A stretch of DNA of 64,000 nt. It comes from Haloplanus sp. XH21. Lineage in GTDB: Archaea > Halobacteriota > Halobacteria > Halobacteriales > Haloferacaceae. A model generated the notes under the pieces. It saw only the letters and a list, made by a program, of their open reading frames with translations. It was not told where the DNA came from and searched no databases. Positions 53,158-63,803 of this stretch are shown here, in pieces (the stretch's first letter is position 1; each line of letters begins with the position of its first letter). The position numbers and the translations under genes were made by a program. The stretch spans positions 682,001 to 746,000 of the forward strand of contig NZ_JALLPL010000001.1 in NCBI RefSeq assembly GCF_023276355.1, in the 5' to 3' direction.

Positions 53158-54582
<1,425 letters not shown>

Positions 54583-55775: not shown

Positions 55776-57029
55776 TTACTCGTAGACCGGGTTCTTCGCA
55801 CAGAGGTGGTCGACTTCGTCCTGCACTGACGCTGCCACGTCGGGGTCGTCGGGGTTGTTCAGGCGCTCGACGATGAGTTCGCCGACCGTCGCCATGTCGT
55901 CGTCATCGAAGCCGCGCGTGGTGAGCGCCGGCGTGCCGACGCGGATGCCACTGGTGACGAACGGCGAGCGCGTCTCGCCGGGCACCGTGTTCTTGTTGAC
56001 GGTGATGCCCACATCGTCGAGGGCGTCCTCGGCTTCCTCGCCCGTGAGGTCCGGATGGGACTCGCGCAGGTCGAGCAGGAGGAGGTGTTTGTCGGTGCCG
56101 CCGGAGACGGGCGCCATGCCCGCGTCGGTGAACACGTCGGCGAGCGTCTTGGCGTTCGCGACCACCTGCTCGGCGTAGTCGACGAACTCGGGTTCGAGCG
56201 CCTCGCCGAAGCCCACCGCTTTCCCCGCGATGTTGTGCATCAGGGGACCGCCCTGGCCGCCGGGGAAGATGGCCTTATCCACCGCTTCGGCGTGCTCGTC
56301 GGTCGTCATGATCATGCCGCCGCGCCCGGCGCGGATGGTCTTGTGCGTACTCCCCGTCACGAAGTCGGCGTCGCCGACCGGGTTGACGTGGACGCCCGCG
56401 GCGACCAGGCCGGTGACGTGGGCGATGTCCGCGAGGTGGTAGGCGCCCACCTCGTCGGCGATCTCCGAGAGACGCTCGAAGTCGAACTCGCGGGGGTACG
56501 CCGAGGACCCGCTGACGATCATGTCGGGGTCGAACTCGACGGCCTGGGCGGCGACGGCGTCGTAGTCGATGTAGCCCGTGTCGGGGTCGACGCCGTACTG
56601 CTCGACGTCGTAGAGCTGGCCGGAGAAGTTGACGTGGTGGCCGTGGCTCAGGTGGCCGCCGTGGTTCAGGTCGAGCGAGAGGATGCGGTCGCCCGGCTCC
56701 AGGACGGAGAAGTAGACGCCCATGTTGGCCTGCGTCCCGCTGTGGGGCTGGACGTTGACGTGTTCGGCGCCGTAGAGCTGTTTCGCCCGGTCGATGGCGA
56801 GGTTCTCGACGGTGTCCATATGCTCACAGCCGCCGTAGTAGCGCTCGCCCGGATACCCCTCGGCGTACTTGTTCGTCATGACGCTGCCCTGGGCCTCCAG
56901 TACCGCCTCGGAGACGTGATTCTCCGACGCGATCATCTCCAGGTTGTTCTCCTGTCGGCGCTCCTCGCCCGCGATAGCCTCGGCGACCGCTGGATCGGTC
57001 TCCTGCAGGTGCGAATGGCTCGTTGTCAC
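55776..57029 (-). CDS. glyA: Serine hydroxymethyltransferase
   Basis: PLP enzyme interconverting serine and glycine with transfer of the one-carbon unit to (tetrahydro)pterin. Start at GTG 57029, 417 residues; a GTG seven codons upstream is less likely because CTACTTATC is centred about 27 bp before 57029. [46 protein letters not shown] and the PLP lysine in [14 protein letters not shown] are intact. With serA/serB, gcvP and fhs it forms the window's serine-glycine-C1 network. Confidence 0.95.
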
Positions 57030-57052
57030 GGTACAGTGCAGGACGAACACCC

Positions 57053-57107: not shown

Positions 57108-58562
57108 CTACTCGTCGAGCGCGTGCCAGGAGAGGCGGGGGGTGCGGGCCGCCGCCGCCTGATCGATGCGTCGCGCGGTCGTCTGGGCCGGCGTCTCGGC
57201 CAGTTCCTCGGGATCCATCTCGGCGACGGCGTTGAACGCCGCCGCGAGGTCGTCGAGTCGCGCCTTCGACTCCGTCTCCGTCGGCTCCGTCATCAGCGCC
57301 TCGTCGACGATTTCGGGCCACTTCGTCGTCGGCGGATGGACGCCGTGATCGAGCATCCCCTTCGCTACGTCGGCCGCATCCGCGTCCGCGCTCGCGACGA
57401 ACTCGTGGTGGAAGGGGCCGTACGGCACCTCGTAGTCGATCTGTGAGGCGAGATAGTTGGCGTTCAACACCGCTCGCTCGCTGATGCGCTCCAGCCCCTC
57501 GTCGCCGTGGCGCAGGATGTAAGCGTAGGCTTTCACCAGCACCAGCCAGTTGCCCATGAACTCGTGGACGCGGCCGATGCTGCGTGCGGGTTCGTACGTC
57601 TCGTAGTCGCCGTCGACTTCGCGGACCTGCGGCGTCGGCAGGAAGGGTGCGAGGTCAGCGCCGACGCCGATGGGACCCTGTCCCGGCCCGCCACCCCCGT
57701 GGGGCGTCGCGAACGTCTTGTGCAGGTTGAAATGCATGATGTCGAATCCCATATCGCCCGGCCGGGCCTTGCCGAGCAGGGAGTTGAGGTTCGCGCCGTC
57801 GTAGTAGAGCAGGCCGCCGGCGCCGTGGACGATTTCGGCGATGTCCTCGATCGACCGCTCGAACAGGCCCAGAGTGTTGGGGTTGGTGAGCATCAGCAGC
57901 GCCGTCTCGTCGCCCACGGCCGCCCGCAGCGCCTCGACTTCCACCCGGCCCTCGTCGTTCGACGGCAGTTCGACCACGTCGTAGCCCGCCATCGCGGCGC
58001 TCGCGAAGTTGGTCCCGTGGGCCGATTCCGGGACGATGACCTCGTTTCGCTCTCCCTCGTCGTTTGCCTCGTGATACGCCTTCGCCACCTGGATGCCGGT
58101 GAACTCGCCGGCGGCGCCGGCGGGCGGTTGGAGCGTCACCGCGTCCATCCCGCCGATGGCTGCCAGCGTCTCCTGTAGCTCGTACAACAGGCCGAGGATG
58201 CCCTGTTTGTCGTCGTCGCTCCGGAGCGGATGGATCCGGTTGCCGCGGTGGGCCGCCACGTCCTCCGTGAACTTCGGGTTGTACTTCATCGTGCACGACC
58301 CCAGCGGGATGGGACCGGAGTCGATGCCGTAGTTCATCTGCGAGAGGCGGGTGTAGTGGCGCGCCACCTCCGGTTCCGCCAGCGCGGGTAGTTCGAGTTC
58401 GTCGCGCGTCAGGTCGTCCGGCAGCGACGACTCCACGTCGACGCTCGTCGAATCCTTCTCGATCAGCAGCGGTTCGTACTTGCCGCCGGCGTACCACCGT
58501 GCCTGTTCGTGCGGGGCGCTCTCGGCCGATTCCTCGCTGGCCTCCCGCTGCTCTTGGCTCAT
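57108..58562 (-). CDS. gcvPB: Glycine dehydrogenase (decarboxylating) subunit 2
   Basis: 484 residues, the PLP-carrying subunit of the split P-protein. Features: [13 protein letters not shown]-type motif ([16 protein letters not shown]), [14 protein letters not shown], and the PLP lysine in [19 protein letters not shown]. Catalyses decarboxylation of glycine and transfer of aminomethyl to the lipoyl H protein. Overlaps gcvPA by 4 bases. Genes for T and H proteins are not in this window. Confidence 0.95.
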
Positions 58563-59887
58563 ACGCTACCTCCGTAGCCCGCGAGCGCGTCGACCAGGTC
58601 GTCCACCTGGTCGCGGTTGGTGTCGGTCACGCAGACGGCCAGGCGGTTCTCGCCCGCGTCCGCGACGGTCCGGAGGGCGAGGCCGGCGTGTCGGCAGTGA
58701 TCCACCACGTCCGCCGCCGGCGCGTCACAGTCCACGAGCGCCTCGCGGAAGTGGTGGCCGTCGTAGACGGGCGCGGTGAAGCCGTCGAGTTCGCCGATGC
58801 GTTCGCAGGCCTCCCTGATGCCCGTCACGCACTCCTCGGCCAGGTCGACCAGGCCCTGCGGGCCGAGCCACGCCGCGTGGATGGCTGCCCGAAGCGCCAG
58901 CCACGCCTGATTCGTGCAGATGTTCGACGTCGCTCGCTCCCGGCGAATGTGTTGCTCGCGCGTCTGCAGTGTCAGGGTGTACGCCCGGTTGCCCGCGCCG
59001 TCTTCGCCCGCGCCGACGAGACGTCCCGGCACCTGTCGCAGGAACTCCTCGCGACACGCGAACAGGCCCAGGCCCATGCCGTACGTCGTCGGCAGGCCGA
59101 GCACGCTTGCGTCGCCGACCACCACGTCGGCACCGACGGCGGCAGGCGGTTCGAGCAGCGCCAGCGCGACGGCGTCCGAGCCGACACAGAACAGGGCGTC
59201 GTTGTCGTCGGCCAGGTCGCCGATGGCGTCGAGGTCGGGTTCGAGGAGACCCCGCGCGTTCGGCGTCGCGGCGTAGACGAACAGCGTGTCGTCGCCGATG
59301 CGTTCCGCGAGGCCGTCCACGTCCGCCGTGCCACCCGTCGTCGGGTAGGTGTCGACGCCGATGTCCGGACCGTCGGTGTAGTTGTCGAGCACCGACCGCA
59401 CGCGCTCGGGCAGGCTCTCGGGCACCAGCACCGTATCGCCGTCGGTCGCCCGCACTCGGTCGGCGAGCAGTGCCGCCTCGCCCAGCGCGGTCGACCGGTC
59501 GTACATCGAGCAGTTGGCGACGTCCAGCCCCGTCAACTCGCGAACGAGCGACTGGAACTCGAACAGTGCCTGGAGGAAGCCCTGCGTGATCTCCGGTTGG
59601 TACTGCGTGTAACTCGTGAGAAACTCCGAGCGCGAGGAGAGATGATCGACCACCGAGGGGACGTAGTGGTCGTAGTGGCCGCCGCCGAGGAACTCGGTCA
59701 GGTCGGGCGAGCCGTCGAGGATGCCCTCGACCGCCGCCCGCGCTGCCCGTTCCGAGTGGGACTCGATCCCGTAGTCGCCGTCGAATCGGACCGATTCGGG
59801 AATGTCGAACAGTTCGTCGGGATCCGTTACCCCGACGGCGTCGAGCATCGCCGACCGTTCCGCGCCGGTGTGAGTCGCGTACGGCAT
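58559..59887 (-). CDS. gcvPA: Glycine dehydrogenase (decarboxylating) subunit 1
   Basis: 442 residues, the N-terminal half of the P-protein. [20 protein letters not shown] and [20 protein letters not shown] near 65-115 and the later FTREQHIRR-like [21 protein letters not shown] segment are characteristic. Forms an alpha2beta2 complex with GcvPB. GAATATATACG on the minus strand is centred about 29 bp before the ATG, so the gcvPA-gcvPB pair has its own promoter. Confidence 0.95.
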
Positions 59888-59944: not shown

Positions 59945-61162
59945 TCAGTTGACGCGCTCGACCTCGTAGCCCACGTCTTCGATGGCCTCGATGACGTTTT
60001 TCGCGTGGCCCTCGCCGCTCGTGACCACCTGGAAGACCAGGTACGCGTCGCCGACGTGGAGGTCGCCGACGGCTCGGTCGTGGCGCACCGTCCGGATGTT
60101 CGCGCCCTCGTCGCCGATGATGCCCGAAATCCGGCCCATCTCGCCCGGTTCGTCACGGATGCGGATGCGCAGGCGGAGCAGCTGGCTCCGGTCGGTCAGG
60201 GCGTGGGTCAACACCGTCTGGAGCATCGACATGTCGATGTTCCCGCCGCAGAGCAGCGGGACGACGGTCTCGTCCTCGACGTCGACCGCGTCGCTAAGCA
60301 GGGCGGCGATGGAGGCCGCGCCCGCCCCCTCGACCAGTTGCTTCGCGCGTTCCAGCACCACGAGGATGCTCCGCGCGATCTGGTCGTCGCTCACCGTCAC
60401 CACTTCGTCGACGTGGTCCTCGATCAGCCCCAGCGTCAGCGACGAGATGCTCCCCGTGGCGATGCCGTCGGCGATGGTCTTCGGCGACTCCTCGTCGACC
60501 GGGATGCCCTTCTGGAGGCTGTCCGGCACGGTCGACGCCATCTCGGCCTGGACGCCGATGACGCGGATGGAGTCGTCGAGTGATTTCAGTGCCGTGCTGA
60601 TGCCGCCGATCAGTCCCCCGCCGCCGATGGGGACGATGACGGTGTCGACGTCCGGCACCTGTTCGTGGATCTCCAGGCCGAGCGTCCCCTGACCCGCCAC
60701 GATGTCGGGGTCGTCGTACGCGTGGACGAACAGCATCCCGGGCTCCTCGGCTTTCGCCTGGGCGTACGACATCGCCTCGCCGAACGTCGACCCGTGGAGT
60801 TCGACCGACGCGCCGTAGCTCCGCGTCGCGTCGACTTTCGCCTGCGGCGCGTTCTCCGGCATGACGATGGTCGACTCCAGTCCGACCGTCGTCGCCGCCA
60901 GCGCGACGCCCTGGGCGTGGTTGCCCGCGCTCGCGGCGACGACGTGTTTGTCGCTGCCCGCCTCGGCCTCCTGTTTCAGCTTGTTGTACGCCCCTCGCGT
61001 CTTGAACGACCCCGTCCGCTGGAGATGCTCCATCTTCAGGTGGACGTCGCCGCCCGACATCTTGCTGAGCGACCGGTTCGTCTCGATGGGCGTCTGCCGG
61101 ACGATGTCCGGGTCGTCGAACCGTTCGCGCGCCGCCTCGATATCCGCGAGGGTAACTGTCAT
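59945..61162 (-). CDS. ilvA: Threonine ammonia-lyase (threonine dehydratase)
   Basis: 405 residues, deaminates threonine to 2-oxobutyrate, either for isoleucine synthesis or catabolism. PLP lysine in LQRTGSFKTRGAYNKL (about 48-63), ASAGNHAQGVALAA, and the glycine loop VPIGGGGLIGGIS are present. The C-terminal 75 residues form a single ACT domain (RIRDEPGEMGRISGIIGDEGANIRTV), pointing to amino-acid control. A GATTTAAC box is centred 27 bp upstream. Confidence 0.94.
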   Translation of the reverse strand: MTVTLADIEAARERFDDPDIVRQTPIETNRSLSKMSGGDVHLKMEHLQRTGSFKTRGAYNKLKQEAEAGSDKHVVAASAGNHAQGVALAATTVGLESTIVMPENAPQAKVDATRSYGASVELHGSTFGEAMSYAQAKAEEPGMLFVHAYDDPDIVAGQGTLGLEIHEQVPDVDTVIVPIGGGGLIGGISTALKSLDDSIRVIGVQAEMASTVPDSLQKGIPVDEESPKTIADGIATGSISSLTLGLIEDHVDEVVTVSDDQIARSILVVLERAKQLVEGAGAASIAALLSDAVDVEDETVVPLLCGGNIDMSMLQTVLTHALTDRSQLLRLRIRIRDEPGEMGRISGIIGDEGANIRTVRHDRAVGDLHVGDAYLVFQVVTSGEGHAKNVIEAIEDVGYEVERVN

Positions 61163-61268: not shown

Positions 61269-62717
61269 CTACAGGAGGCGGGTGGGCGTCGCGAGCAGTC
61301 TCGCCACCCGGTCGAGAAACCGCGCGGCGACGGCGCCGTCGACGACGCGCGGATCCACCGACAGCGACAGCGGGAGCGTCTGGCGGGCGACCACCTCACC
61401 GTCGACGACACGCGGACGGGACTCGATTCGCCCCAGCGCGAGCGTCGCTACCGTCGGACGGACGACGGGTGGCGTGGCGTACGTTCCGGCCACGGCGCCG
61501 ATGTCCGTGACGGTGAATGTGCAGTCCGGCGACTCCTCGTCGGCGACGTGCCCCTCGCGGGCCCGCGACAGTTTCGTCGCCGTCTCCGACGCGAGATCCA
61601 GCAATCCCCGTCCGTCGACGGCGTCGATGACCGGTAGCGACAGCCCCGCATCCGTCGCCGTCGCCACGCCGAGGTCGTACGTGTCGTGACAGACGATCTC
61701 CCCCTGAGACTCGTCTATCGAGGCGTTGAGTCGCGGGAACTCCCGTAGCGCCAGCGTCACCGCGCGCAGCACGAAGGGGAGTTCGGTGAGGTCGATCCCC
61801 TCGACCTCGGCGTACGGTTCGAGGTCCGCTCTGACATCCACCAGCGTGGTCACGTCCACCTCGTCCGCGTGGGTGGTGTGCGGCACTGCGAACGCGGATG
61901 CGGACGCAGACGCACCCGACCGACCGCCGGCGGCCGGTACGTCTTCGACGGGGAGCCGATCGCCGGGCGCGATCCCGCTCTCCTGTGCCGTCTCCGGCAC
62001 TTCACTCTCGGGTTCTGCCGTCTCCGCCCCTCCGCTCACCGTCTCCTCCTCTGTCGTCGGTGCGCCGTTCCCGGTCACGTCGGCGGCGGCCGCCGACGCG
62101 CGGTCGACGGTCGTCGCCGACTCCCGATGGGTCGGCTCCGCGCGCTCGTCCCGTTCTCGCAGAACGGGCGTCGCCGTCGCCGAGAGCGCCCGCGGCGTCG
62201 GCCGGCGATCCTGCGGCGACTTCTCGCTCGCCCGTCGTACGTCCGCGTCGGTGACGCGGTCCCGTTCGCCGGTGCCCGCCACGCGACTGGGGTCGACGCC
62301 GAGTTCGCGCGCCAGGCGGCGGGTTCGCGGCGGGGCGAACGCGCGGGAGCGTTCGGCCGCCGTCGCGACCGACGCACTGCCGCTCGGTTCGCCGCCCTCG
62401 ATCGGTCGTTCGGCCGCCTCGGTCGCCGGTGTCTCCTCCGGTTCGTCGCTAGTTCCGTCTGCCTCGTCGCCCTCATCCCCCACGTCGAGCGCGACGAGCG
62501 GCGTCCCGACGGGCACCATGTTGCCGGCTTCGGCGTGGCGCTCTTGGACCGTCCCCGCCATCGGTGCCGGGACTTCGATCACGGCCTTGTCGGTCTCGAC
62601 CTCGGCGAGTGGCTGGTCTTCGGTCACGTCGTCGCCCGGGTCGACCAGCCACTGGAGCAGTTCCGCCTCGACGACGCCCTCGCCTAAGTCCGGCAGGACG
62701 ACGGTTTCGACGGTCAT
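61269..62717 (-). CDS. 2-oxoacid dehydrogenase E2-like acyltransferase with altered active site
   Basis: 482 residues. Domain order is normal: an N-terminal lipoyl domain with lipoyl lysine K44 in VETDKAVIE, an E3/E1-binding domain (RTRRLARELGVDPSRVAGTGERDRVTDADV, about 131-160), acidic disordered linkers, and a C-terminal catalytic domain. In that domain the family motif DHRxxDG reads D455-P456-RVVD460-G: the catalytic-position His is Pro. No E1 alpha/beta genes are adjacent. It is followed upstream by a short ORF and lipA. Activity as an acyltransferase is doubtful; a lipoyl-carrier role is possible. Confidence 0.88.
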   Translation of the reverse strand: MTVETVVLPDLGEGVVEAELLQWLVDPGDDVTEDQPLAEVETDKAVIEVPAPMAGTVQERHAEAGNMVPVGTPLVALDVGDEGDEADGTSDEPEETPATEAAERPIEGGEPSGSASVATAAERSRAFAPPRTRRLARELGVDPSRVAGTGERDRVTDADVRRASEKSPQDRRPTPRALSATATPVLRERDERAEPTHRESATTVDRASAAAADVTGNGAPTTEEETVSGGAETAEPESEVPETAQESGIAPGDRLPVEDVPAAGGRSGASASASAFAVPHTTHADEVDVTTLVDVRADLEPYAEVEGIDLTELPFVLRAVTLALREFPRLNASIDESQGEIVCHDTYDLGVATATDAGLSLPVIDAVDGRGLLDLASETATKLSRAREGHVADEESPDCTFTVTDIGAVAGTYATPPVVRPTVATLALGRIESRPRVVDGEVVARQTLPLSLSVDPRVVDGAVAARFLDRVARLLATPTRLL

Positions 62718-62827
62718 GGTGTCGCCCCCTCCGCGCCGTCGACGTGCGTCGCGTCGATGTCGCTCCGTGAATCGGGGTCGGTCGGCTGTTCCTGCGGTGG
62801 GTTCGTCGCCCGTGTGTTCGTGCTCAT
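62714..62827 (-). CDS. Possible 37-residue ORF preceding the E2 gene
   Basis: An ATG at 62827 opens 37 hydrophilic, acidic, Pro-rich codons (MSTNTRATNPPQEQP) whose stop overlaps the E2 ATG by 4 bases, as in coupled translation. No family is recognisable; it could be a leader peptide, a remnant of a lost upstream gene, or not translated. Confidence 0.3.
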   Translation of the reverse strand: MSTNTRATNPPQEQPTDPDSRSDIDATHVDGAEGATP

Positions 62828-62873: not shown

Positions 62874-63803
62874 TCACGTCGCGGCGTGTGCCTCGCGGCG
62901 CGCCTCGTCGACGCTCCGGCCCTCCCGGAGCACCGCGTCGACGAACAGTTCGCCCGCCCGGTACGACGACCGGACCATCGGCCCGCTGGCACAGTAGAGG
63001 AAGCCGAGTTCCTCCTCCGCGACCCGGCGCCACGTCTCGAAGGCGTCGGGATGGACGTATTCGTACACGTCGAGATGTGAACGTGAGGGCTGGAGATACT
63101 GGCCGAGCGTCACCACGTCGACGCCGGCCTCGCGGCAGTCCGACAGCGTCCGGTAGCGTTCGTGGTCGTACTCGCCCACCCCGAGCATGAGGCTCGTTTT
63201 GGTGTACACGTCCGCCGTGTCGCTGGCGCGTTCGAGCACCGAGAGCGACTGCTCGTAGCCGGCCCGGCGGTCACGCACCGGCCACTGCAGGCGCTCGACG
63301 GTCTCGACGTTGTGCGCGAGGACGTCGGGACCGGCGTCGACGATGCGGTCGACGAGCGCCGGATCGCCCTGGAAGTCGGGGATGAGCACCTCCACCAGAA
63401 TCCCCGGATCCCGTGCTTTGATCGCCTCGATGGTCCGGGCGAAGTGGCCCGCGCCCTGGTCGGGCAGGTCGTCGCGGTCGACGCTCGTCAGGACGACGTA
63501 GTCCAGGCCGATTTCCGCGACGGCGTCGGCCACCTTCGCCGGCTCCTCGGGGTCGAGTGCGTCCATCCCGCCCGTCTCCACGTCACAGAAGTTACAGCCG
63601 CGGGAACAGCGGTCGCCCATCAGCATGAACGTGGCCGTCCCGGGGCCGTTGCGGCCGCTCCAGCACTCGCCCATGTTGGGACAGTTCGCCTCCTCGCACA
63701 CGGTGTGGAGGTCGCGGTCCCGGAGCGTCTCCTTGATCTCCGCGAACCGCTGGCCCGACGGTGGCTGGATCTTCAGCCAGTCGGGCTTGCGCCTGCGTGC
63801 CAT
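62874..63803 (-). CDS. lipA: Lipoyl synthase
   Basis: Radical SAM enzyme inserting sulfur into octanoyl groups on E2 and H proteins. The 309-residue protein has both clusters: auxiliary cysteines C36, C41 and C47 (CEEANCPNMGEC) and the radical-SAM C66-x3-C70-x2-C73 (CSRGCNFC). MLMGDRC, VVLTSVDRDDLPDQGA, and TKTSLMLGVGE follow as expected. The family's C-terminal RSSY reads RSSYRAGE. A CGTTTTTGC box is about 27 bp upstream. It is divergent from the MATE transporter gene. Confidence 0.96.
   Translation of the reverse strand: MARRRKPDWLKIQPPSGQRFAEIKETLRDRDLHTVCEEANCPNMGECWSGRNGPGTATFMLMGDRCSRGCNFCDVETGGMDALDPEEPAKVADAVAEIGLDYVVLTSVDRDDLPDQGAGHFARTIEAIKARDPGILVEVLIPDFQGDPALVDRIVDAGPDVLAHNVETVERLQWPVRDRRAGYEQSLSVLERASDTADVYTKTSLMLGVGEYDHERYRTLSDCREAGVDVVTLGQYLQPSRSHLDVYEYVHPDAFETWRRVAEEELGFLYCASGPMVRSSYRAGELFVDAVLREGRSVDEARREAHAAT

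Follow-up and report, generated by a model that had tools for sequence, protein, structure and literature searches.

Archaea that have lipoate and a dihydrolipoyl dehydrogenase but no working 2-oxoacid dehydrogenase complex are an old puzzle. The mitochondrial E3BP (protein X) of the PDH complex is an E2-derived protein with lipoyl and E3-binding domains; it is catalytically inactive, recruits E3, and shares its complex with an active E2 and E1. Absence of the catalytic His distinguishes E3BP from E2 in animals (PMC10156792). The operonic haloarchaeal 2-oxoacid dehydrogenase complex (OADHC) is exemplified by the OadhAB1 type of Haloferax volcanii, which is linked to Ile catabolism (Sisignano 2010, cited in PMC8305020). 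Lipoylated E2 with Lpd is also established as an electron donor to AhpD and Ohr/OsmC peroxidases, a role that uses only the lipoyl domain and E3 and no acyl transfer, and the E2 of these bacterial systems keeps its dehydrogenase job (PMC8945050). LbpA, from sulfur oxidation (PMC6067878), and GcvH-L, encoded in SirTM operons (PMC4518038), are lipoyl carriers that belong to neither 2-oxoacid dehydrogenases nor glycine cleavage. A literature search of incomplete coverage found no description of archaeal E2s lacking both an E1 and the catalytic His.

The E2-like gene analyzed here lies in a 64,000-nucleotide stretch of Haloplanus sp. XH21 DNA (the window; Table 1), which belongs to a genome of 2.94 Mb in 3 contigs that is 95.8% complete (G000). 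The original prediction that the protein retains its lipoyl and binding domains was confirmed by Pfam. By repeat count, its E3-binding domain is the first of the two present in canonical haloarchaeal E2s. The 482-aa translation ends in LPLSLSVDPRVVDGAVAARF. AlphaFold predicted the lipoyl, E3-binding, and acyltransferase domains to be folded, and Foldseek matched the acyltransferase fold to the E2 cores 1b5s, 1eaa, and 1dpc (1b5s TMt 0.78, rmsd 2.1). The 2-oxoacid_dh profile match began at position 22 of 232.

Table 1 Features of the E2 locus and neighboring genes, in window positions.
Feature	Coordinates	Strand	Basis
lipA, lipoyl synthase, upstream gene of same operon	62874..63803	-	NCBIfam lipA; operon order in congeners
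37-codon mini-ORF, E1-beta scar	62714..62827	-	Start match to congeners, ATGA overlap
E2-like protein, 482 aa	61269..62717	-	Sole PF00198 protein of genome
Lipoyl domain, aa 5-77	62487..62705	-	Pfam PF00364
Lipoyl lysine K44, kept (ETDKA)	62586-62588	-	Conservation
Peripheral-subunit/E3-binding domain, single, aa 127-161	62235..62339	-	Pfam PF02817
Acyltransferase (catalytic) fold, aa 273-482, without N-terminal arm	61272..61901	-	Pfam PF00198, Foldseek
Pro456 codon CCG, catalytic His position of DHRxxDG	61350..61352	-	Translation, alignment
ilvA, threonine ammonia-lyase, downstream gene in ancestral lipA-E1-E2-ilvA order	59945..61162	-	
gcvPA, glycine decarboxylase subunit 1	58559..59887	-	
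gcvPB, glycine decarboxylase subunit 2	57108..58562	-	
glyA, serine hydroxymethyltransferase	55776..57050	-	
lpd (E3), dihydrolipoyl dehydrogenase, presumed partner of E3-binding domain	53158..54582	-	

Pro occupies the catalytic His position, as predicted: the translated motif region reads LPLSLSVD-P-RVVDGAVAARF. The alignment with haloarchaeal E2s that the prediction had called for found His in 96/96 E2s sampled from E1-containing genomes. The codon of this His was read in 80 canonical haloarchaeal E2s and was CAC in 77 and CAT in 3; the CCG of Pro456 is two bases away from either. The same DPR occurred in G096, an independent genome of another genus. Given the two base changes, the invariant His of relatives, and the DPR of G096, Pro456 is not a product of chance or of a single miscall.

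We searched the genome with Pfam profiles for E2 (PF00198), E1-alpha (PF00676), and the E1-beta marker Transket_pyr (PF02779), all of which matched Haloferax volcanii among the controls. Genome-wide, the E2-like protein was the one PF00198 match in G000, and there was no PF00676 match and no PF02779 match. The reported lack of adjacent E1 genes therefore extends to the whole genome. The protein had also been suggested to be a paralogue, but the genome has no other E2, and by gene position this one is orthologous to the operonic OADHC E2 of congeners. Among 12 genomes of the genus, PF02779 was absent only from G000 and G011, the same two that lacked PF00676.

The neighborhood recorded how E1 was lost. 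lipA adjoins the E2 gene as noted from the sequence, and its assignment scored above the NCBIfam cut-off. Congeners G002, G006, and G009 had the order lipA-E1alpha-E1beta-E2-ilvA, while G004, G007, and G010 had lipA-E1beta-E2-ilvA and a distal E1-alpha. E1alpha-E1beta-E2 also followed lipA in 12/15 named haloarchaeal lipA loci examined. These named loci were reached with lipA as query; an E2-query search for related loci gave no confirmed relative. The G000 protein shares this lipA/E1a/E1b/E2 neighborhood and domain order with the operonic OADHC E2, but lacks E1, the catalytic His, and the N-terminal arm, and has one E3-binding repeat instead of two. In G000, lipA and E2 are separated by 156 bases that hold a 37-codon frame. 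The first 18 nt of this frame (ATGAGCACGAACACACGG, MSTNTR) match the E1-beta start of congeners, its 57-column alignment with G007 outscored all 500 shuffles, and its end keeps the congeners’ ATGA overlap with the E2 start. We conclude that an in-frame internal deletion took out E1-beta. In G011, lipA runs straight into E2, with the two genes overlapping.

Other features of the genus and window were recorded alongside. The distal E1-alpha genes (G004:C1:1192777-1193634, G007:C1:411309-412166, G010:C1:1043869-1044741) have open frames of 366–394 aa and are the only E1-alpha of their genomes, the operonic copy being absent. They are perhaps of the OadhA4 type (HVO_2209), which has not yet been analyzed experimentally (PMC8305020), and are apparently paired with the operonic E1-beta. 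The E2 catalytic domains of G002 and G007 (L040, L036) had a synonymous divergence of 0.17 vs ~0.4 elsewhere in the genus, which suggests that the domain was recently exchanged or underwent gene conversion. Within the window, lpd encodes the one dihydrolipoyl dehydrogenase, and a 2Fe-2S ferredoxin gene (PF00111; 52599-52988, minus strand) lies directly downstream of it. A formate-tetrahydrofolate ligase (PF01268; 6631-8358, minus strand) shares the window with gcvPA/gcvPB and glyA, which suggests folate-based C1 metabolism.

E2s without E1 recurred elsewhere in haloarchaea. Across the GTDB family, 154/170 genomes had an E2 match and 151/170 an E1-alpha match. Near-complete genomes with E2 and no E1-alpha were G000, G011, G096, and G097; a fifth, G043, belongs to another family and is 92% complete. 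We refer to the E2s of these five as orphans. The low-completeness genomes G061, G162, G014, and G098 were left out of claims on E1 absence. E1-beta was searched genome-wide in the window’s genus, and in G096 and G097 its absence is at the level of the locus. These two genomes are from a genus other than that of G000 and have E2-lpd where their congener G032 has E1a-E1b-E2-lpd. The motif read DPRAVDS in G096, DSRVVDP in G097, DGRVADT in G043, and DHRVVDG in G011. The catalytic His was thus gone in 4/5 E1-less genomes (Pro, Pro, Ser, Gly) vs 0/96 E2s from E1-containing genomes (Fisher p ~1e-6, uncorrected for relatedness). Trees placed the orphans in at least three lineages, with G000 and G011 inside their genus clade, G096 and G097 together, and G043 separate. 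A single E1 loss shared by G000 and G011 would fit their grouping in E2 trees (0.96–0.999), which long branches could also cause and which lipA did not reproduce. The His loss belongs to a set of changes that recurs among haloarchaea lacking E1.

Two kinds of E2 gene stood out in this survey. The orphan E2 of G043 (L042:9306-11087) has Gly for the catalytic His and Arg for the lipoyl Lys, although its E3-binding domain is retained and its frame is open over 593 aa. Lone E2 genes of ~273–370 aa that encode an acyltransferase domain and no lipoyl domain were present at L145 and L146 (G126, G124) and in congeners G002, G008, and G009. Those of G124 and G126 scored low but keep DHR (two read) and adjoin E1 genes; they were set aside as a different, split-E2 arrangement.

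Losses in the orphans extended beyond the His. Of the 55 columns with conservation of 97% or more across 96 canonical E2s, 14–25 were changed in orphans, repeatedly at the same sites. These were the N-terminal arm (RRxIGExM), the Tyr of LTY, the Asn, Glu, and Ile of the ATPIVNxPEVAI loop, and the His. The arm and the invariant Asn were gone in 5/5 orphans, and the Arg and Asp of DxRxxD were kept. G011 retains its His yet shares the losses of arm, Tyr, Asn, Glu, and Ile, so its E2 is probably inactive too. Low AlphaFold confidence in the active-site loop was rejected as evidence, since orphan block means fell to 67 and the canonical control was alike at 65–72. At least two E3-binding-type repeats were present in 33/35 canonical haloarchaeal E2s read (Pfam finds two in G002), and 5/5 orphans had the first only. 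That first repeat kept 9–10 of its 10 conserved columns and the lipoyl domain 24–28 of 33. The lipoyl lysine was kept in 4/5 orphans; because it is Arg in G043, not every orphan has retained the carrier function.

The G000 protein matches neither of the two described classes. It has the lipoyl domain of an E2, with a lysine of the modifiable type that is probably lipoylated, one E3-binding domain that would bind E3, and the CAT-like acyltransferase fold, but it has no catalytic His and no cognate E1. Like mitochondrial E3BP, it combines E2 topology and an E3-binding domain with absence of the catalytic His, and it would likewise be inactive and recruit E3. E3BP, however, sits on an active E2 core beside E1, and G000 encodes neither an E1 nor another PF00198 protein; the two are of independent origin. 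We regard it as an E1-independent, probably catalytically dead E2, outside the definitions of both E2 (His, E1) and E3BP (active core). LbpA and GcvH-L, in turn, are small, GcvH-like, and not E2-derived, and unlike the G000 protein they have no E3-binding domain or acyltransferase fold.

We propose with moderate confidence that this protein no longer transfers acyl groups and is retained as a lipoylated dithiol/disulfide carrier that docks E3 and has an inert core of the trimer type. It is what remains of an operonic haloarchaeal OADHC that lost E1-alpha first and E1-beta next, and with them oxidative decarboxylation. With acyl transfer no longer required, its acyltransferase domain shed the catalytic His, the N-terminal arm, and conserved residues of the ATP(I)VNxPEVAI loop. 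Of the E3-binding-type repeats, the second, probably the E1 dock, disappeared, and the first, probably the E3 dock, stayed under selection together with the lipoyl domain. The parts lost are those for acyl transfer and, we infer, for E1 docking. Because the maintained parts carry the dithiol and dock E3, an E3-docked lipoyl carrier is the simplest function. Both Lpd and the lipoyl-domain protein are encoded in the window, and lpd, lipA, and E2 belong to the same gene cluster. Electrons may pass from NADH through Lpd and lipoyl-E2 to a thiol protein, with an Ohr/OsmC- or AhpD-type peroxidase as the best precedent. The E2s of the bacterial peroxidase systems differ in keeping their dehydrogenase role; the G000 E2 has no E1, and its peroxidase partner is putative. 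The idea of a neofunctionalised or inactive paralogue acting as lipoyl carrier or scaffold thus survives in its second half, as an inactive carrier or scaffold is the best-supported function, and not as a paralogue.

The main rival, which we think unlikely, is slow decay: E1 loss would have left the E2 gene without function, its degeneration held back only by chance and by translational coupling within the lipA operon. It accommodates the missing His, arm, second repeat, and invariant Asn, and the lost lipoyl Lys of G043. It also accommodates a fused scar in E1-less G014 (L041:9200-9997), which joins an E1-alpha N-terminus to an E2 C-terminus, lies immediately ahead of an intact lpd, and is a decay end point. 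With nothing but this pseudogene remnant in G014, and with E2 missing altogether from several E1-less genomes, the protein is dispensable in some lineages. Between G000 and G011, dN/dS was ~0.29 in the lipoyl, 0.30 in the E3-binding, and 0.39 in the catalytic domain, and 0.82 in linkers; between G096 and G097 the respective values were 0.43, 0.17, 0.55, and 0.36. Canonical catalytic domains had 0.22–0.25. These values put the orphan catalytic domain under relaxed constraint, short of neutrality; it evolves ~2x as fast as that of canonical E2s, which suits decay and counts against a carrier. The lipoyl and E3-binding domains, at 0.17–0.43, do not fit decay, and the E3-binding domain, near unchanged in 5/5 orphans, is the most constrained part overall. 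Open frames of 415–593 aa persist in all five orphan genomes, and a neutral simulation at the observed divergence left the frame intact in 1/1000 runs (~0.1%). The deletion that made the E1-beta scar also kept frame and ATGA coupling. Values of dN/dS well below 1 in folded domains, together with intact frames, argue against simple decay. The decaying gene of the original prediction is thus disfavored by dN/dS, simulation, and retained domain columns, and stays as a rival.

A role in lipoate assembly or storage is improbable. Here the E2 lipoyl domain would be an octanoyl/lipoyl acceptor for LipA and a reservoir for the GcvH of the neighboring glycine cleavage system, in keeping with the retained lipoyl domain and with the lipA-E2 operon upstream of ilvA-gcvPA-gcvPB-glyA and lpd in G000. 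This leaves the E3-binding domain, the best conserved part, unexplained, and in G096 and G097 E2 pairs with lpd rather than lipA. An acyltransferase still active through another base or substrate-assisted catalysis, with some other E1 or acyl donor, is very improbable: Arg457, Asp460, and the fold are retained and G011 has the His, but G000 has no E1, the arm and the loop Asn, Glu, and Ile were lost in parallel even in G011, and His610, studied with Ser558 and Asn614 for the mechanism of A. vinelandii E2p (PDB 1dpc title), is among the residues to which its catalysis is assigned. A sequencing or assembly artefact behind the Pro codon or the E1 absence is scarcely credible even for a 95.8% complete assembly, given the two-base difference, loss of the same residue in independently sequenced genomes, contiguous synteny over the deletion, and the matching E1 absence in G011 (99% complete).

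The separate His losses in other haloarchaea suggest a role for the retained carrier that needs neither partner nor acyl transfer. Tentatively, haloarchaea may have repeatedly turned the E2 of a dismantled complex into a dedicated dead lipoyl/E3 scaffold, a stand-alone NADH-to-dithiol relay without a 2-oxoacid dehydrogenase. If so, this parallel remodeling would tell which tandem binding domain docks E1 and which E3. Loss of the second repeat alongside E1 predicts that repeat 1 binds E3 and repeat 2 binds E1. G000 offers a clean way to learn what a lipoyl-E3 module does by itself, and the automatic labels “PDH/OADHC E2” and “2-oxoacid dehydrogenase-positive genome” would be wrong for such proteins and genomes.
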